Shown piece by piece: positions 2,260-34,710 of a stretch of DNA of 40,174 nt. The notes beneath the pieces were generated by a model. That model did not search any database. It worked only from the letters and a program-made list of their open reading frames with translations, and was not told the origin of the DNA. Source of the DNA: Candidatus Omnitrophota bacterium (GTDB lineage: Bacteria; Omnitrophota; Gorgyraeia; Zapsychrales; Fredricksoniimonadaceae); contig JADFXW010000004.1 of the NCBI GenBank assembly GCA_015233375.1, positions 1,976 to 42,149 of the forward strand. Reading direction: 5' to 3'. The first letter of the stretch is position 1; every line of letters starts with the position of its first letter. Made by a program: the position numbers and the translations under genes.

Positions 2260-3496
2260 GAAAATAGCCGTTGTGCTTTATCGTTACCCTTTGAGCATAT
2301 CGACGATGATAATCGCTGCTATTGCTTTATTAAGCCAACACAATAAGGTTGATGTCTTTCTTGATGATAAGCAAAGACTGACTTTTAAATGCGACCCATG
2401 GCTGCAGGCGCTGATTGTGCCAGGCACGAAGAACCCTTTTGCGATTTTTTTACGTAAAGCAACGAATAAATTGAGGATTCTTTTTTTCTCGGCGTTTGGC
2501 AGGTTTTATTCTTTTTCTTGGGAAAGCATCAATTTTGATCTTGTCCGGTTTTCCAAGGCCTTGCGCGGGCAATTCTCCAAGAATCAATACGATATTGTCA
2601 TTGCCATAGAAGCCAAAGGCTTGATAGCCGTTGATAGGGCGGAAGTTTTTAAGGGGGATTTGATTTATTTTGATATGGAATTGTTAGATTGGTCCCCGAA
2701 GCATTGGGCGCACATGGATAAAGTGGAATTAAAGAAGAGACAATTTGCGGCTTTACAAAAGGTCAATCATGTGATGATAACAAGCCCTAAAAGGGCAGAG
2801 ATATTTGCTCAAATGAACAAATTTAACCCGGAACGCATATCGGTCTTGCCCGTTGTACCGCTCAAAAGAAAGGTCTTACAAAGGTCCAGGTATTTTAGAG
2901 ATAAGTTTAAGATACCTGAACATCAAGTGATTGTGCTTTATGCGGGGAATTTTTCCGCTTGGGCGCAATGCCTTGAAATAATAGAAAGTATGGACAACTG
3001 GCCTAAGGAAGCGGTATTGGTGATGCACACGGGGTACGGGAAGCAGGTTAAAAATTTAGATTATTTTAAGGCCATGGAAAAGAAGGCTTCTGGGCGTCAG
3101 GTCTATTTTTCGTTAGAGCCCATGCTTTATCAAGATATCACGGAGGCCATGACATCAGCGGATATTGGGCTTGCTTTTTATGAGAATCTAGATGCTAATT
3201 TTTATGAAATTTGCTTTTCATCGAACAAGATGGCTGAATATCTCGCCTCAGGGCTGTCTGTCATTACGTCTCCTTTTGAGGGGCTTAAGGAATTCGTTGA
3301 AGGGCATGGAATAGGGAGATCCGTTGATTGTGCTGATATAGGAAAGGCCGTCCAAGACATTATTCAAAAAGAGCGAGTTTATCGTGAAAATGTAAAAAAA
3401 TGTGTTGAAAAATTCTTTATTTTTGAGGATTATTTTTCGAAAGCATGGCTGCGTTACGAAAAGTATGCAGGCCTATCACAAACAAGTCCTCATTAA
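2246..3496 (+). CDS. Glycosyltransferase (GT-B, group 1-like)
   Basis: ORF track starts at 2150; ATG at 2246 (MMTNKKIAVVLYRYPL) is more plausible, with a short overlap of the previous stop. Contains VLYAGNFSAWAQ and SSNKMAEYLASGLSVITSPFEGLKEFVEG. Confidence 0.75.
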   Translation: MMTNKKIAVVLYRYPLSISTMIIAAIALLSQHNKVDVFLDDKQRLTFKCDPWLQALIVPGTKNPFAIFLRKATNKLRILFFSAFGRFYSFSWESINFDLVRFSKALRGQFSKNQYDIVIAIEAKGLIAVDRAEVFKGDLIYFDMELLDWSPKHWAHMDKVELKKRQFAALQKVNHVMITSPKRAEIFAQMNKFNPERISVLPVVPLKRKVLQRSRYFRDKFKIPEHQVIVLYAGNFSAWAQCLEIIESMDNWPKEAVLVMHTGYGKQVKNLDYFKAMEKKASGRQVYFSLEPMLYQDITEAMTSADIGLAFYENLDANFYEICFSSNKMAEYLASGLSVITSPFEGLKEFVEGHGIGRSVDCADIGKAVQDIIQKERVYRENVKKCVEKFFIFEDYFSKAWLRYEKYAGLSQTSPH

Positions 3497-3516
3497 TTGA
3501 GGCGCAAGGAAGAAAG

Positions 3517-5733
3517 ATGATAAAAGAGACCCAAGTTAAAATAATTTGTACCATAGGCCCTGCATCCTTAGAACCGGATATCCTTAAGAAATTAGAAGCC
3601 AGAAAGGTTTTTTTGGCGAGGATTAATCTTTCCCATGTCCGTCTAGAAGATATAGAAACATATATTCATAAACTCCTTCCCTTTAATATCCCTATAGCGA
3701 TTGACACAGAAGGTTGTCAAATCAGGACCGGTTATATTGAGCAAGGTTCTGTTTTTTTTCATAATAACAGTTTAGTCAGGGTTTATAGGTCTAAGGTCCC
3801 TATTGACGGGAATCAAATCTATTTTAACCCGCATAATGTGGTTGATTTCTTCAAGCCTGGGGATTTGATAGAGTTAGATTTTAATTCGGTGCTTTTAAGG
3901 GTTGAGGATGTGTCGATCTTAGCGAAGGATGATTTTATCCTTTGTAGGGTCATCATCGAAGGAAGCATAGGAAGTTCTAAAGGGGTCCATAGCGATTCCA
4001 TGGCCCAAGTGTTGCCCGCCTTTAGCCAGAAGGATCTAAAGGCGTTTGATTTAGCTAAAAAATACGGCATTAAGCATTTCACCTTGTCCTTCATGAATAC
4101 GGATTTGGATGTCAAAAATTTTAAGGAGATATGCCCCCAATCAGTGGCTTATGCCAAAATAGAAACCCTATCAGGAGTCAAGAATGTTGAAGCTATTATG
4201 AAGCATGTGGAAGGGATATTGATAGATAGAGGTGATCTTAGCCGAGATGTTCCTATAGAACGGATCCCGCTGATGCAGAAATATTTAATAGAAAAAGCGA
4301 ATGCTGCAGGAAAAGAGGTATTAGTCGCCTCGAATTTGATAGAGACGATGGCTTTAGCATTAAAACCTTCAAGGGCCGAGGCCAACGATATCATCAGTAC
4401 TATTAGAGATGGGGTCAGTGGTTTTGTGTTGACTAAGGAGACGGCAGTGGGCCAGTATCCTGTTGAGACGGTCAATATGCTAGAAAGCCTGATAAAATTA
4501 GGAAAGCATGCCAGGCAGATGGCGCAGCATCGAGATACTAATGATATTGACTATCTTCTTGACAGGGATACAGACGGGCTTTTGATAGAACCGCATGGCG
4601 GGCGATTGATTGAGCGTCTTTGGGATCCTAAGGCCTTGGGCCAGATCTCGTCTTTGCCTAAGTTATTGGTTAATGAAGACATCTTGATGGACCTCGACCA
4701 GATTTCTGTGGGTGCATTTAGTCCTTTGGAAGGATTTTTGGTACAGGATGATTACAAGAGCGTCTTGGAAAGAATGCGCCTGGCTAATGGTGTGCCATGG
4801 CCCATACCCGTGATCCTGCCTGTTGATGACAACCAGAAAAAGGGATTGGCCAAGGGAGAGGAGATTGCTCTTTGTTTAGAGACAGATGGGGCTGTTTATG
4901 GGACTTTGAAAATTGAGGAAATTTATCCGTTTGATAAAGAAGAATTTGCGCGCCGTGTTTACGGAACCATGGATGATAAGCATCCAGGGGTCCAGATTCT
5001 AAAGAAGTGTGGAGAGTATTTGTTAGGGGGCAAGGTTAAACTTATCAAGCGGCCTCATTTTAAATTTGATCATCTTAACCTAACGCCCCGGCAGGCCAGG
5101 CGAATTTTTGAAAGTTTGGGTTGGTCTAAGGTTGTTGGTTTTCATACAAGAAACGTTATCCATAGGTCTCATGAATACATTCAACTAGAGGCCATGGAAA
5201 GATGCGGTTGTGACGGACTTTTTGTGCATCCTGTGGCAGGTAGAAAGAAGGCGGGAGATTATACCGTTGAAGCTATTGTGCAAAGTTACCAGATAATGGT
5301 TGAGAAATATTACCCTAAAAACAGGGTCATTTTTGGGATGTTTTCAACATATTCAAGGTATGCGGGCTTTAGGGAAGCGGTGTTTACGGCCTTGTGCAGG
5401 AAAAATTTTGGCTGTAGCCATTTTATTGTGGGACGTGATCATACCGGAGTAGGGCAATTCTACGGGGCCACCAGTTCGCAAGATATTTTTCATCAATTTG
5501 AGGATATTGTGATCGAGCCGGTATTCTTCGATGAGGTTGGATTTTCAAGTAAGTTGAAAAAATATATGCATAAAAAAGATGCCCCTGAAGGGGATTTCTT
5601 GAACATCAGCGGAACTAAGGCCAGAGAGATGTTTAAGAATAAGAATTCTCCTCCGGATTGGTTCATGCGCCAGGATATTTCTGATGCGATCATCAATCAA
5701 TTATCCAATGGCCAGAAGGTTTTTGTCGAATGA
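3517..5733 (+). CDS. Fusion protein: pyruvate kinase-like barrel domain (N-term) + sulfate adenylyltransferase / ATP sulfurylase (C-term)
   Basis: N-term: VKIICTIGPAS, RINLSH, IDTEGCQIRTG, AKIET, GILIDRGDLSRDVPIERIPLMQKYLIEKANAAGKEVLVASNLIETM, PSRAEANDIISTIRDGVSGFVLTKETAVGQYPVETV (pyruvate kinase signatures). C-term from ~4575: LIEPHGGRLIERL, GFHTRNVIHRSHEYIQ, GRDHTGVGQFY, ISGTKAREMF (ATP sulfurylase). Start 3517 with upstream AAGGAAG. Confidence 0.9.
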   Translation: MIKETQVKIICTIGPASLEPDILKKLEARKVFLARINLSHVRLEDIETYIHKLLPFNIPIAIDTEGCQIRTGYIEQGSVFFHNNSLVRVYRSKVPIDGNQIYFNPHNVVDFFKPGDLIELDFNSVLLRVEDVSILAKDDFILCRVIIEGSIGSSKGVHSDSMAQVLPAFSQKDLKAFDLAKKYGIKHFTLSFMNTDLDVKNFKEICPQSVAYAKIETLSGVKNVEAIMKHVEGILIDRGDLSRDVPIERIPLMQKYLIEKANAAGKEVLVASNLIETMALALKPSRAEANDIISTIRDGVSGFVLTKETAVGQYPVETVNMLESLIKLGKHARQMAQHRDTNDIDYLLDRDTDGLLIEPHGGRLIERLWDPKALGQISSLPKLLVNEDILMDLDQISVGAFSPLEGFLVQDDYKSVLERMRLANGVPWPIPVILPVDDNQKKGLAKGEEIALCLETDGAVYGTLKIEEIYPFDKEEFARRVYGTMDDKHPGVQILKKCGEYLLGGKVKLIKRPHFKFDHLNLTPRQARRIFESLGWSKVVGFHTRNVIHRSHEYIQLEAMERCGCDGLFVHPVAGRKKAGDYTVEAIVQSYQIMVEKYYPKNRVIFGMFSTYSRYAGFREAVFTALCRKNFGCSHFIVGRDHTGVGQFYGATSSQDIFHQFEDIVIEPVFFDEVGFSSKLKKYMHKKDAPEGDFLNISGTKAREMFKNKNSPPDWFMRQDISDAIINQLSNGQKVFVE

Positions 5734-12356: not shown

Positions 12357-12382
12357 CCTTAAAAAGGAATATGTTAACGTGA

Positions 12383-12555
12383 GTTCGATATAAGGCTTGG
12401 AAGTTATTTTTTCAACTACGCGTTGCCTTTTTCCGCCAATCTTTTCTAATATTTCAGAAAGACAACGCCCTTCGGGCTGTCTTTTAAGAATCGGTGATGA
12501 AGATTGGCGGGGCAACAGTAGTTTTTAAAAACAACTTCCAAGCCTTATATCGAAC
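12383..12555. repeat. Large imperfect inverted repeat (outer arms ~55-60 bp) with internal hairpins
   Basis: GTTCGATATAAGGCTTGGAAGTT... pairs with ...AACTTCCAAGCCTTATATCGAAC; inner continuation CGTTGCC..CCGCCAATCTT / AAGATTGGCGGGGCAAC; internal AGACAACGCCCTTCGGGCTGTCTTTT hairpin. Confidence 0.9.
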
Positions 12556-12596
12556 TGGCGGTATGTAAAGGGCCCTAAAGAACAATCAGCAATGGG

Positions 12597-16940: not shown

Positions 16941-17030
16941 GATGGACGGAGGACTATTATGTTTCCGGAACGGGATATTTTGGCCAAAAATCCCTGATTG
17001 TTCCGAAAACATAATAGTCCTCCGTCCATC
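16941..17030. repeat. 90-bp near-palindrome between gmd and fcl
   Basis: GATGGACGGAGGACTATTATGTTTCCGGAAC / GTTCCGAAAACATAATAGTCCTCCGTCCATC (one mismatch over 31 bp) with inner GGGATATTTTGGCCAAAAATCCC. Confidence 0.92.
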
Positions 17031-17033
17031 TGA

Positions 17034-18044
<1,011 letters not shown>

Positions 18045-20640: not shown

Positions 20641-20725
20641 AGGAAATTCCTTTTCTCCCTCTTTGCGAAGCGATGAAAGAGAGGGTTCAAGGGGAGTTCT
20701 TTTTAAAGTTCGCCCTAAGGCGTTA
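20641..20725 (+). repeat. Dispersed repeat copy A (CCCTCTTT..AAAGAGAGGG..GGGGAGTTCTTTTTAAAGTTCGC)
   Basis: Shares stem and 3' tail with copies at 24912, 31916 and 34636. Confidence 0.8.
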
Positions 20726-21147: not shown

Positions 21148-22849
21148 TAAGGCTATCATTACAAAAGTATTTTTTATTCTTTGTATGATAGGGCTTTTTT
21201 TAGTACAGGCCCAGGCTGCCAGTCGTTATGGTGGAAGCCTTGTTGAGGCTGTTTCCTCTGATCCTAAGACCTTCAATGATATTGTTTCAACGGATGCTAA
21301 CAGCCGGGTCATCACGTCATTACTTTTTGAAGGCTTAACAACTGAAGATCCTTTCACCCTTAAAGTTATCCCCAATTTAGCAAAATCATGGGACGTTAGT
21401 CCAGATGGGCTTAGATGGGTGTTCCATTTAAGAACAGATGTTCGCTGGTTTGATGGTGTTTTTTTGAGTGCCGATGATGTTGTTTTTACCTTTAATGATT
21501 TAATTTATAATCCTGATATCCCCTCTTCTTGTAAAGATGTATTGACCATTGAAGGCAAGCCATTGACCGTTGAGAAAATAGATGATCACACGGTGCGTGT
21601 AATCTTACCTGTCAAATTCGCCCCCTTTTTAAGGGCCATGGGCCAGTCTATCTTGCCCAAACATTGTTTAATGAAAGCCCTGCGGGACAAGAAGTTCTCA
21701 TTCACCTGGGGGATTGACACGCCTGTGGAACAAATTATTGGTACAGGGCCGTTTCAATTAAGTGAATACCATCCTGGCGAGCGATTGGTTTTTAAACGTA
21801 ATCCTCATTATTGGAAAAAATCAAAGACCCAGGAACAGCTGCCTTATTTGGATAAGATTGTTTTTTTAATCATTCAAGATCACCAGGCCCAGCTTCTGAA
21901 GTTTATGGATGGCGAACTTGATGCGGTTGGGATAAGTGGCAGTGATTATCCATTATTAAAACCTTTGGAAGCGTCCAGGCAATTTCATATTTTTGAGGCC
22001 GGGGCTGCTTATGATGCCAATTTTGTGGTATTGAATCAGAACCCTCGCCTTAATCCAAAAACCCATCGTCCTTTTCTTGACGCTGTGAAGTTGTCCTGGT
22101 TTACCAATCTGTCATTCCGCAAAGCTTTGGCGCATGCGATAGATAAGAAGAAAATCATTGAAATATTAAATAACGGGTTGGGCCTCTCGCAGGATGGCCC
22201 GATGTCGCCTGGCAGCGGATTTTTTTATACACCTGATGTGATGACCTATGATTATGATTTAAAGAAGGCAAAGGAAATATTAAAACAAGCGGGATTTCAT
22301 TTAAGCCCTGATGGAGGCACCTTGAAGGATCCTCAGGGGCATCCTGTTGAATTTAATTTTTATACAGCGAATGCTGCATCTGCGGGGCGTGAGGCGATGT
22401 CAGGGATTATTCGTTTTGATTTAGAAAGATTGGGCATGAAGGTGAATTTAGTGACCGTTGAATTTAATACCCTGGTCAATAAATTGATGTCTTCGTATGA
22501 TTGGGACATGGTGATGATAGGATTAACAGGCGGGGTTGAGCCTCATTTTGGCCAGAATGTTTGGGCCTCTTCGGGAGGTTTGCATTTATGGAATCCTCGT
22601 CAAAAGACACCCGCGACTTTATGGGAAAAACGGATTGATGAAATTTTTAATGAAGGGGCCCAGGAATTGGATGAGAATAAACGGAAAATACTTTATGATG
22701 AGTTTCAGAGGATTGTTGCTGAAAAATTACCAGTTATTTATACGGTGTTGAATATGGACATGTACGCGGTGCGTGATAAATTTGGAAACCTGAAACCATC
22801 AGTCAATGGCGGCGCGTTTCATAATATTGAGGAGATCTATAAAAAATAG
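21134..22849 (+). CDS. Peptide ABC transporter substrate-binding protein (SBP family 5)
   Basis: GGSLVEAVSSDPKTFNDI, LAKSWDVSPDGLRWVFHLRTDVRWFDGVFLSADDVVFTF, IGTGPFQLSEYHPGERLVFKRNPHYW. Confidence 0.95.
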   Translation: MPSHNKAIITKVFFILCMIGLFLVQAQAASRYGGSLVEAVSSDPKTFNDIVSTDANSRVITSLLFEGLTTEDPFTLKVIPNLAKSWDVSPDGLRWVFHLRTDVRWFDGVFLSADDVVFTFNDLIYNPDIPSSCKDVLTIEGKPLTVEKIDDHTVRVILPVKFAPFLRAMGQSILPKHCLMKALRDKKFSFTWGIDTPVEQIIGTGPFQLSEYHPGERLVFKRNPHYWKKSKTQEQLPYLDKIVFLIIQDHQAQLLKFMDGELDAVGISGSDYPLLKPLEASRQFHIFEAGAAYDANFVVLNQNPRLNPKTHRPFLDAVKLSWFTNLSFRKALAHAIDKKKIIEILNNGLGLSQDGPMSPGSGFFYTPDVMTYDYDLKKAKEILKQAGFHLSPDGGTLKDPQGHPVEFNFYTANAASAGREAMSGIIRFDLERLGMKVNLVTVEFNTLVNKLMSSYDWDMVMIGLTGGVEPHFGQNVWASSGGLHLWNPRQKTPATLWEKRIDEIFNEGAQELDENKRKILYDEFQRIVAEKLPVIYTVLNMDMYAVRDKFGNLKPSVNGGAFHNIEEIYKK

Positions 22850-22907
22850 TGACAGGCACTAATTTTCTTAAAATTTGATTAAAAATTAGTGCCTGTCACT
22901 ATTTTTT
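22841..22907. repeat. Perfect 26-bp inverted repeat hairpin with 15-nt loop
   Basis: AAAAAATAGTGACAGGCACTAATTTT ... AAAATTAGTGCCTGTCACTATTTTTT; contains the stop codon of the upstream gene. Confidence 0.95.
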
Positions 22908-22912
22908 CTACT

Positions 22913-23881
22913 ATGTTTAAACATATTTTACAACGCCTCGGTTCCACCATTTTGCTCTTGCTTGCCGTGAGCTTTTTGACTTTTTGGCTCATGCGCGCTA
23001 CACCGGGTAATTTCTTTGACTCGTTGCGCCTGAATCCACAAATTTCGCAGGAAATGGTGGAGCGTTATGAAAAACTTTATCATTTAAAAGACCCCTTGCT
23101 CGTCCAATACGGGCATTGGCTTGTCAATATTCTTCACGGAGAGTGGGGATACTCTTTTTATTATAATGTGCCTGTGACCCATGTGTTGGGTACTCGTTTG
23201 TTTAACACCTTTATTTTATCGTTCACGAGTTTATTATTGACCTGGAGCCTGGCGATTCCCTTAGGGATTTGGGCTTCCCTTCGGGCTAATCAATGGGGGG
23301 ATCGCCTTCTTTCCCTATTTTCATTTGCAGCGCTGTCAGTGCCTGGTTTCTTTTTGGCAGTTCTGGTTTTATATATAGCAAGCCTCGTCGGAGGATTGCC
23401 CTTAGGGGGTATGCATAGTCCCGGGTATGATGAGATGTCGTTTTTTGGAAAAGTTTGGGACACTCTTCTTCATTTGATAATTCCCGCTTCAGTGCTTTCT
23501 TTATCAAGCATGGCGTCCCTGCAGAGGATTATGCGGGGAAATATGTTGGGTGTTTTGCGTCAGCAGTATATTTTAGCGGCCCGTGCGAAAGGTTTACCGG
23601 AAAACCTGGTGATTTATCGTCACGCACTTCGCAATGCCTTTAATCCACTGGTCACGCTTTTAGGTTATGAATTCGCCTCCCTTTTAAGCGGGGCGGCGTT
23701 AGTGGAAATTGTTTGTTCTTGGCCTGGTTTAGGCTCACTTTTGTTGACAGCGGTAAGGGCCAAGGATATTTATTTGGTCATGAGCAGTACTCTCTTGGCA
23801 GGTGTCCTTTTGATTGTGGGCAATATTTTAGCGGATATTTTATTGGTTTTGGTTGATCCACGGATTAGGTATGAACAATAG
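22913..23881 (+). CDS. Peptide ABC transporter permease (DppB/OppB-like)
   Basis: LQRLGSTILLLLAVSFLTFWLMRATPGNFFD; AARAKGLPENLVIYRHALRNAFNPLVTLLG EAA-type motif. Start moved to ATG 22913. Confidence 0.94.
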   Translation: MFKHILQRLGSTILLLLAVSFLTFWLMRATPGNFFDSLRLNPQISQEMVERYEKLYHLKDPLLVQYGHWLVNILHGEWGYSFYYNVPVTHVLGTRLFNTFILSFTSLLLTWSLAIPLGIWASLRANQWGDRLLSLFSFAALSVPGFFLAVLVLYIASLVGGLPLGGMHSPGYDEMSFFGKVWDTLLHLIIPASVLSLSSMASLQRIMRGNMLGVLRQQYILAARAKGLPENLVIYRHALRNAFNPLVTLLGYEFASLLSGAALVEIVCSWPGLGSLLLTAVRAKDIYLVMSSTLLAGVLLIVGNILADILLVLVDPRIRYEQ

Positions 23882-24902
23882 CCGTATATCATTAGCTTTT
23901 AAATCTTTTCGTCAAAACCGCATGGCCATGATTTGCTTATGGGTTCTAGGTTTATTGTATGGTCTTGCTATTTTTGCGGATTTGATAAGCCCGTATTCTT
24001 ATGCGGATGAGGACCGTAATTTCTCTTATTGCCCTCCGACATCTATAGAGTTTTTTGATGGGCCCAAGATTGTTCCTCCTTTTGTTTATCAAAAGCATTT
24101 GACCTTTGATGCCATGCACCGTCGTGTTTTTGTGGTAGACAGGAGCCAAAAATATCCTTTGCATTTTCTTAGAGGGGGACGTTTGATTCAAGTTGATGCG
24201 CCCGCGAGGCTTTATTTATGGGGAGCAGATGCCAGGGGCCGTGATTTATTTTCACGGATCTGTTATGGGGCCAGGATTTCTTTATCAATAGGCCTTATAG
24301 GTGTTGCTATTTCATTTATTTTTGGGCTTTTGATAGGGGGGATGGCTGGTTTTTATGGTGGCTGGATAGATGGGATATTAATGCGTGTTTGTGAGATGTT
24401 CATGATGGTACCTGGTTTTTATTTGATGTTGGCTTTAAGGGCTGCGGTCCCGGAGAATTTTAACTCTGTGCAGGTTTATATCAGTGTTGTTTTGATCTTG
24501 GCGCTTATTGGCTGGGCCTCCTTGGCGCGAATTATCCGTGGCATGACCCTTTCTTTGCGTGAGCGTGATTATGTATTAGCAGCCAAAACCTTTGGGGTGT
24601 CGGATTTAGGGATTATTTGCAAACACATTTTGCCTCAAACGGTATCTTATTCTTTGGCAACCTTGATGCTTTCTGTTTCCTCTTATATTTTAGCTGAGGC
24701 GGGATTGAGCATGGTGGGGCTTGGTATCCAGGACCCCGTCCCCAGTTGGGGCAATCTTCTATCGAATGCCATGGAAATAGTGCCGGTCATTTTTGCGCCG
24801 TGGATATTACTGCCAGGTTTATTTATTTTTATGGCGGTCATGTGTTTCAATGTTATTGGCGATGCGCTGCGGGACGCCTTTGATCCCATGTTTCAGGATT
24901 AA
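23871..24902 (+). CDS. Peptide ABC transporter permease (DppC/OppC-like)
   Basis: GADARGRDLFSRICYGARISLSIGL, LAAKTFGVSDLGIICKHILPQ, EAGLSMVGLGIQDPVPSWGNLLSNA. Confidence 0.94.
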   Translation: MNNSRISLAFKSFRQNRMAMICLWVLGLLYGLAIFADLISPYSYADEDRNFSYCPPTSIEFFDGPKIVPPFVYQKHLTFDAMHRRVFVVDRSQKYPLHFLRGGRLIQVDAPARLYLWGADARGRDLFSRICYGARISLSIGLIGVAISFIFGLLIGGMAGFYGGWIDGILMRVCEMFMMVPGFYLMLALRAAVPENFNSVQVYISVVLILALIGWASLARIIRGMTLSLRERDYVLAAKTFGVSDLGIICKHILPQTVSYSLATLMLSVSSYILAEAGLSMVGLGIQDPVPSWGNLLSNAMEIVPVIFAPWILLPGLFIFMAVMCFNVIGDALRDAFDPMFQD

Positions 24903-24911
24903 GAAATACCA

Positions 24912-24984
24912 CAGGAATTTTTCCCCCTCTTTTTTTAAAGAGGGGGAAAGGGGGAGTTCTTTTTAAGGTTCGCTGAGAAGCGTA
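24912..24984 (+). repeat. Dispersed repeat copy B
   Basis: CAGGAATTTTTCCCCCTCTTTTTTTAAAGAGGGGGAAAGGGGGAGTTCTTTTTAAGGTTCGCTGAGAAGCG. Confidence 0.85.
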
Positions 24985-25093
24985 AGTTCTGTCCGTGGGA
25001 TATAGCGAGGTTTATGGACACTTTAAAAGTTTTTTTCGAAACGGGATATTTTCGCCGTTTGTGTCTGTTACAACAAATTTTTTCACATAGAGA

Positions 25094-25317
25094 ATGGAAG
25101 GACTGAAATTGTTTTTTAAAGAGATTTGGTCATTTTAGCCTAAAATGAGTCATGACCGAGGGCATTTTAGCCCATCAGGGCTAAAATGGCCAAACATGTT
25201 CGAGTCCTTTATTTCAAGAGAAATAAAGGACGAGTTGTTTGGCCACCGAAGGGCATGACTTATTTTAGGCGTTAAAAAATGACCCATCTCTTTAAAAAAC
25301 AATTTCAGTCCTTCCAT
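25094..25317. repeat. 224-bp nested palindrome with perfect 32-bp terminal arms
   Basis: ATGGAAGGACTGAAATTGTTTTTTAAAGAGAT (25094-25125) / ATCTCTTTAAAAAACAATTTCAGTCCTTCCAT (25286-25317); further pairing TCATTTTAGCCTAAAATGAGTCATG / CATGACTTATTTTAGGC..AAAATGA; apex CCTTTATTTcaagagAAATAAAGG; side hairpin CATTTTAGCCCatcaGGGCTAAAATG. Confidence 0.95.
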
Positions 25318-25331
25318 GATCACTAGAAAAG

Positions 25332-26105
25332 GTGCTTATTCAAAATTCCGTACTATCCATCAATGGTTTAACGATATCTTCAAAAGACAAGACGATTGTC
25401 AAGGACGTGTCTTTTGAAGTCCCTCGGGGAAAGATTGTGGCTTTGGCTGGCGGATCTGGTTGTGGCAAGACAACGATAGGGTTGTCTGTTTTACGACTCT
25501 TGCCGTATGGCCTTCATTTGGAGCGAGGCCGCATTCTTTTTGAGGGGCAGGATTTATGGGCGCTTTCCCCTGAGGAAATAAGACAGATAAGAGGAAAACA
25601 CTTGAGCATGGTGTTTCAAGATGCTTTAAGCGCCTTTGATCCCGTATTTACCATTGGGAGCCAATTAAATGAAGTGTTGGTGGCTCATACGGAATTATCC
25701 CAAAAACAGAGACGTGAGAAAATTTTGAACGCCTTTGGTGAGGTTCAATTGCCAGATCCAGAACGTGTGTATCGAAGTTATCCGCATCAATTAAGCGGCG
25801 GGATGCGGCAGCGTGCGATGATAGCGCAAGCGTCTATCTTAAATCCAGCCTTACTGATTGCTGATGAGCCCACCAGCAGCCTGGATGTGACCTTGCAAAT
25901 AAAGATGGGCGAGTTATTATCCTGCTTAAAAGATAAAGGGGTTTCAATCTTAATGATTGCGCATGATTGGGGCATGATTAAACGATTAGCGGATTTTGTG
26001 GTTGTGTTGTGCCAGGGAGAGGTTGTGGAACAGGGCGCTGTTCATCAGGTTTGTCAGAACCCTGGGCATGAATATACCAAGGCCTTAATGGAGGCGTTTC
26101 AATGA
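25332..26105 (+). CDS. Peptide ABC transporter ATP-binding protein (DppD-like)
   Basis: VALAGGSGCGKTTIGLSVL Walker A, LSGGMRQRAMIAQA signature, LLIADEPTSSLD Walker B. Confidence 0.94.
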   Translation: MLIQNSVLSINGLTISSKDKTIVKDVSFEVPRGKIVALAGGSGCGKTTIGLSVLRLLPYGLHLERGRILFEGQDLWALSPEEIRQIRGKHLSMVFQDALSAFDPVFTIGSQLNEVLVAHTELSQKQRREKILNAFGEVQLPDPERVYRSYPHQLSGGMRQRAMIAQASILNPALLIADEPTSSLDVTLQIKMGELLSCLKDKGVSILMIAHDWGMIKRLADFVVVLCQGEVVEQGAVHQVCQNPGHEYTKALMEAFQ

Positions 26106-31873: not shown

Positions 31874-31915
31874 AGGAATTTCCTTAGTCTCCCTTTTTTA
31901 AGAGGAAGAAAAACC

Positions 31916-31990
31916 ATTTCCCCCCTCTTTGCGAAGCGATTAAAGAGGGGGAAAGGGGGAGTTCTTTATAAAGTTCGCTGTAAGAGACTA
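31916..31990 (+). repeat. Dispersed repeat copy C (preceded by a partial copy at ~31872-31910)
   Basis: ATTTCCCCCCTCTTTGCGAAGCGATTAAAGAGGGGGAAAGGGGGAGTTCTTTATAAAGTTCGCTGTAAGAG. Confidence 0.85.
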
Positions 31991-34635: not shown

Positions 34636-34710
34636 ATTTTCTTATTCCCCCTCTTTAGTTAAAGAGGGGGTTAGGGGGAGTTTTTAAAAAGTTAGCTGTA
34701 AGGCGGTAAG
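34636..34710 (+). repeat. Dispersed repeat copy D
   Basis: ATTTTCTTATTCCCCCTCTTTAGTTAAAGAGGGGGTTAGGGGGAGTTTTTAAAAAGTTAGCTGTAAGGCGG. Confidence 0.85.

Follow-up and report, generated by a model that had tools for sequence, protein, structure and literature searches.

What separates the oppC-like permease gene from the oppD/dppD-like ATPase gene at this locus of a Candidatus Omnitrophota genome? In G002, the closest relative that keeps oppC-oppD, the two genes are 14 bp apart, whereas in the window (the whole stretch of 40,174 nucleotides that was analysed) the gap is 429 bp, and the 'splitting' of the transporter operon described in the first-pass annotation is thereby upheld. The gap holds a 224-bp branched palindrome, and also a CCCCCTCTTT hairpin repeat and an apparent part of another palindromic repeat (Table 1). 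Is the palindrome a stoichiometry switch for permease and ATPase, as the annotation had it, or a repeat that happened to insert between two genes?

Table 1. Coordinates of the branched palindrome, its parts and its surroundings in the window
Feature	Position	Strand	Basis
oppC-like permease gene, upstream	23853..24902	+	gene calls, protein comparison
CCCCCTCTTT hairpin repeat	24920..24975	+	scores as terminator-like
Fragment resembling half of another palindromic repeat (family B, as in L044)	24977..25092	+	comparison by eye
Whole branched-palindrome element copy, most likely element body	25094..25317	+	fold, arm complementarity, homologues
Left terminal inverted-repeat arm, 32 nt, perfect	25094..25125	+	inverted-repeat search
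Conserved TCATTTTAGCC, asymmetric A/GTTAA internal loop, 5' side	25130..25140	+	TTTTAG invariant across five species
Conserved core of 94 nt, three-way junction	25157..25250	+	covariance models R1 and R2 (98.1 bits, E 5e-23); covariation
Side hairpin	25163..25188	+	fold; double changes in 49-copy alignment
Apical-arm base stem, 5' strand GGCCAAAC	25188..25195	+	fold; 49-copy covariation
ATGTTCGAG, tandem G.A internal loop, 5' side	25196..25204	+	TGT and GA near-invariant in 49 copies
Apical stem-loop	25205..25230	+	fold; 49-copy covariation
CGAGTT, tandem G.A internal loop, 3' side	25231..25236	+	GA and TT invariant or nearly so (96-100%) in 49 copies
GTTTGGCC stem strand and junction ACC (CC pairs with main stem)	25237..25247	+	49-copy covariation
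Conserved GGCGTTAAAAAATGA, asymmetric A/GTTAA internal loop, 3' side	25268..25282	+	comparison of copies
Right terminal inverted-repeat arm	25286..25317	+	inverted-repeat search
oppD/dppD-like ATPase gene, downstream; start codon tentative (GTG 25332)	25332..26105	+	gene calls, relative's operon

The palindrome is real. Its terminal arms of 32 nt are 100% complementary, and the RNA fold of a 244-nt region has an energy of -134.8 kcal/mol against a mean of -50.6 for shuffled sequences (z -19.8; 0 of 200 shuffles). Folded as DNA, either strand is strong (-86.7 and -82.2). The side hairpin and the apical stem pointed out in the annotation are both present in the fold, where they form the three-way junction of the core, and the distance from the palindrome end to the called oppD ORF is 14 bp, as had been stated. 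A motif was also said to recur on both arms. CATTTTAGCC does recur, twice in the left half (25131 and 25163) and with its complement within the side hairpin, but the right main arm has the variant ATTTTAGGCGTTAAAAAAT in place of that complement, a mismatch conserved among copies. Element ends are approximate in the genus of the window: copies in the same genome have in common an additional motif at the right end, GTCCACTA, and flanks that pair weakly.

How widespread is the element? A genome-wide copy count, proposed in the annotation, yields about 14 loci by sequence search of the element's own draft genome (1.76 Mb, 64% complete), nine of them with the whole core and the others cut by contig ends or internally shortened. 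These copies are 91-97% alike in the core and are nearer each other than any other genome's copies. In relatives within the genus, the main stems share little sequence with that of the window; the fold is the same. Outside the genus blastn gives no matches, and more distant copies were found with covariance models. The first model (R1), built on the 94-nt core, detects copies in all seven genomes of the genus, in two more genera of the same family and in 16 genomes that belong to different families within the class, sister genera within the family being mostly without the element. The second (R2), built from 49 copies, is positive in 63 of 384 sampled Candidatus Omnitrophota genomes and 49 of 282 genera, with up to 11 copies each; all of the genomes are incomplete MAGs, covariance E-values are rough and copies from the same genome are not independent. 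The repeat family is apparently undescribed. The window copy gives only sub-threshold, unrelated miRNA and sRNA matches in Rfam, none reaching the gathering threshold, no Rfam family is matched in eight homologous loci, a scan for tRNA and tmRNA found none, and no account of the element turned up in the literature searched for repeats or structured RNA of Omnitrophota. A viral origin was considered and rejected, as none of 32 IMG/VR contigs with a short motif matched the covariance model.

Does the element move? At the orthologous site of one G004 copy, G006 and G002 lack the element and have gaps of 49 and 43 bp, and where G002 has a copy, G004 and G006 have nearly no gap and no element. Recent, near-identical copies are found in pairs at otherwise unrelated loci, two pairs in G183 (98.6% over 289 nt and 95.7% over 254 nt) and one in G221 (97.8% over 313 nt). 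Similarity within a pair stops on one side at the inverted-repeat ends, e.g. AAATGAATCTG...CAGATTCATTT; on the left side, some pairs share a further stretch beyond the element. The differences in presence at orthologous sites and the near-identical copies at unrelated loci together indicate that the element is mobile and dispersed. There is no clear target-site duplication at the copies compared, and flanks at empty sites are too diverged to give exact insertion points. Some loci are common to several species, more often than chance by a rough estimate, and at three orthologous loci (G001/G005, G000/G006 and G005/G006) the element is inverted relative to the genes, which would fit two origins, independent insertion or an inversion of the spacer through template switching.

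The genes next to the element are housekeeping genes of various kinds, and the neighbour families listed include no transposase. In tandem gene pairs the + strand is antisense in 30 cases and sense in 14 (p 0.02, ignoring relatedness), an excess to be expected if sense insertions are more harmful. Judged by this distribution, the element is a dispersed repeat and not an operon-specific device, and a stoichiometry switch as its purpose is not supported, unrelated neighbours, occurrence in both orientations and the predominance of antisense copies all speaking against it. How, then, might it be mobilized? End-pattern searches, the element's own genome being 64% complete, revealed no autonomous transposase-bearing element with the same ends; the candidates for such a partner were all either short hairpin derivatives or solo ends, of which one or more lies at the 3' end of a gene. 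Y1 (RAYT/IS200) transposases were rejected as mobilisers: there are 0-2 such genes per genome of the genus, and in G006, a genome with about 11 copies of the element, none was detected. A motif, GCCACCCGCT or GCCATCCGCT, accompanies 13 of 102 copies, at loci that include L282-L285 and L276-L279. It stands upstream of the element, on the 5' side and in the same orientation in every case and never 3', and is possibly a companion module.

Is the fold itself selected? In covariation analysis, advised in the annotation together with folding, 26 of the 31 base pairs change on both sides in the 49-copy alignment (341 cells versus 92 shuffled; 0 of 500 shuffles), and sliding the pairing partners by one column lowers pairing from 95% to about 50% or less. 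This alignment is fitted to the model; the first, unfitted R1 alignment agrees, with double changes in 20 of 31 pairs (0 of 500 shuffles). Covariation alone is insufficient here, however, because template switching in inverted repeats can equalize the arms and mimic compensatory change (PMC8794818, PMC8604942). The arms are indeed equal within one copy and different between copies. In three copies of the element's own genome (L013, L014 and L019) the palindrome tip is lost at matching points on both arms, and in a fourth (L011) the left half has been copied in place of the right half, with the turn at the side hairpin. To judge from these break points, the shortened copies were left by a polymerase that switched template within the hairpin. 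In G002 (C37:60346-60641, L129), two copies face each other head to head in a stretch of less than 300 bp, and one of the two is rearranged.

The decisive observation is that the best conserved places are not Watson-Crick paired. In the core internal loop (TGTYYGAG / CGAGTT), the unpaired TGT and GA of the 5' side and GA and TT of the 3' side are 96-100% identical in 49 copies across the class, and unpaired columns carry a mean information of 1.21 bits, more than the 1.03 bits of paired columns. The loop does not have the arrangement of a kink-turn. Tandem G.A pairs, from CGAG opposite CGAG, form on the + strand only, and additional C-GA-G steps are present in the main stem and the side hairpin of relatives. 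Mismatches on this strand are biased toward G.A over C.T (43:2 in the core and 59:21 in the main stem). The ratios of G.U to A.C are mixed (39:15 in main stems, 12:20 in core pairs); the strand argument therefore rests on the G.A pairs and one C-G/U.G pair, and the data are compatible with both RNA and single-stranded DNA. Double-sided changes together with near-invariant unpaired residues read as an RNA-like signature. As far as comparison of copies can tell, the fold is under selection, and it must be selection that holds the conserved mismatches; the annotation's expectation of a very stable, structure-selected nucleic acid is strongly supported by the covariation and the conserved loop residues.

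Could template switching during replication have done all this by itself, maintaining a degenerate palindrome whose fold is unselected? Such a process would account for arms that are equal within copies and different between them, for the L011 derivative and for the inverted orientation at three orthologous loci, and both arm homogenization and spacer inversion by template switching are known from the literature. But it would erase mismatches and loops, and these are among the most conserved residues phylum-wide, which makes this explanation very improbable, even though part of the palindrome covariation can come from template switching without selection, a point against the reading preferred below. 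An inverted chimera of the assembly is hardly credible. Assemblies are broken at the palindrome at the end of G006:C53 and the start of G006:C57, contigs of these MAGs often end in such an element, and G006:C53 is an inverted chimera, in which one and the same flank borders the element on either side, in inverted orientation. The window copy, however, is internal to a 42-kb contig and has asymmetric loops and different flanks; with asymmetric homologues at many loci in independent MAGs, the artefact of inverted chimeric reads that the annotation had allowed for is excluded for this copy.

The element is probably a non-autonomous, MITE/ERIC-like mobile repeat that has terminal inverted repeats and whose + strand fold is conserved. 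A putative enzyme supplied in trans would recognize the folded + strand and move the element within and between Omnitrophota genomes. The recognized molecule is more likely single-stranded DNA, exposed during replication or transposition, but possibly RNA; DNA is slightly preferred because copies occur in both orientations, DNA folding is good and no promoter is evident. The identity of the arms within a copy would be renewed by template switching in the hairpin, while selection holds the conserved mismatches. At the present locus the element would have landed between oppC and oppD and, as a side effect, probably lowered or uncoupled oppD expression. An insertion 14 bp from the oppD ORF probably disturbs the start region and transcript of this gene, and a polar effect is plausible.

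Might the gap have a function in the operon after all? A stable hairpin between cistrons can act as a block to exonucleases or polymerase, and a cis-acting mRNA element (terminator, RNase-processing or stabilizing hairpin) that sets the permease:ATPase ratio would suit a very stable structure lying in the 429 bp that separate oppC from oppD, two genes of the same direction. Yet copies adjoin unrelated genes and are more often antisense, which speaks against any dedicated cis-acting mRNA device; the element is absent from the same site in G002, and the one terminator-like stem within it is weak, with the T tail GAGTTGTTTG. Such a role is improbable. A cis-regulatory leader or riboswitch was rejected for the same distribution of neighbours and orientations. 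The RNA-like covariation, the near-invariant unpaired residues including the tandem G.A loop, the conserved C-G/U.G pair and the deep conservation would also suit a multicopy family of small non-coding RNAs, transcribed from their own or a neighbouring promoter and acting in trans as folded RNA, with dispersal secondary; the 30:14 antisense predominance fits independent transcription. This is unlikely, though not negligibly so: a conserved promoter was not seen in the window copy, which was the one examined for it, copy numbers range from 1 to 11 and differences in presence are frequent, sister genera of the family mostly lack the element and Rfam has no match. Somewhat less likely still is an RNA-dependent, SINE-like mobile element, in which a ribonucleoprotein or reverse transcriptase would recognize the three-way junction with its tandem G.A loop and copy or direct the element. 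If true, it would be a phylum-wide bacterial mobile element of a kind not yet described.

How does the preferred reading, a mobile repeat moved in trans, compare with known systems? Large structured bacterial RNAs of the HEARO, OLE and GOLLD types have elaborate, covarying and conserved folds, and some are tied to mobile elements; the present element differs in being mostly one long helix, with no adjacent partner gene and no Rfam match in eight loci. REP and REPIN sequences are imperfect palindromes recognized as folded single strands, and are multicopy and mobilized in trans by RAYT (Y1) transposases. The element is likewise a multicopy folded palindrome, but is about 220 nt in length, whereas REPs have 20-40 nt and are far more numerous; membership was rejected on length and because Y1 was not detected in G006. 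Integron attC sites were also rejected, as the core motifs do not fit the attC consensus. With bacterial MITEs the element shares terminal inverted repeats, a lack of coding capacity, species-specific amplification, internal deletion derivatives and empty sites. It also has multiple dispersed copies with presence/absence at orthologous sites; it is not filed as a MITE, since neither a parental transposase nor a clear target duplication was found, and its interior is structured and conserved phylum-wide, that of a MITE being an eroded transposon. ERIC, YPAL and similar intergenic repeats of 100-200 bp in Gammaproteobacteria are, like the element, dispersed, intergenic, long foldable palindromes without a gene (PMC2267715), a likeness of anatomy. 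ERIC is described as a single long stem-loop (PMC2267715), but the element has a three-way junction, near-invariant non-canonical loops and double-sided covariation over some 50 genera, and belongs to another phylum. By analogy, it would work as a MITE or ERIC-type repeat does.

Many genera of this uncultured phylum thus share a structured mobile repeat family that neither Rfam nor the literature searched contains, with covariation as strong as in accepted structured RNAs. The conserved single-strand fold suggests that some protein recognizes the element as folded RNA or DNA, and predicts a putative enzyme that reads a branched single-stranded fold. The family also offers a natural system in which one sequence is subject both to template switching, which perfects palindromes, and to selection, which preserves defined mismatches. 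For Omnitrophota MAGs in general, it explains some assembly breaks and operon gaps.

Other repeats are found in the window. A long palindrome at 12375-12563 (RNA z -13.9) recurs elsewhere in the same genome, at G000:C110 (L039), with its interior inverted relative to the arms, and is a second branched repeat family. At 16941-17030, just before the gene at 17037, a near-perfect 31-bp inverted repeat resembles a larger palindrome in L044 (G000:C164); palindromes of this type are a third family, and half of one appears to be present next to the element, at 24977-25092. A short hairpin, CCCCCTCTTT..AAAGAGGGGG, followed by GGGGGAGTTCTTT has four intergenic copies (20641-20715, 24920-24975, 31907-31980 and 34645-34699). 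A REP-like palindrome, AATAGTGACAGGCACTAATTTT, at 22838-22910 overlaps the end of a solute-binding protein gene and the start of a permease gene. Among the genes, a single ORF at 3445-5733 encodes a pyruvate-kinase-like domain fused to one of sulfate adenylyltransferase.
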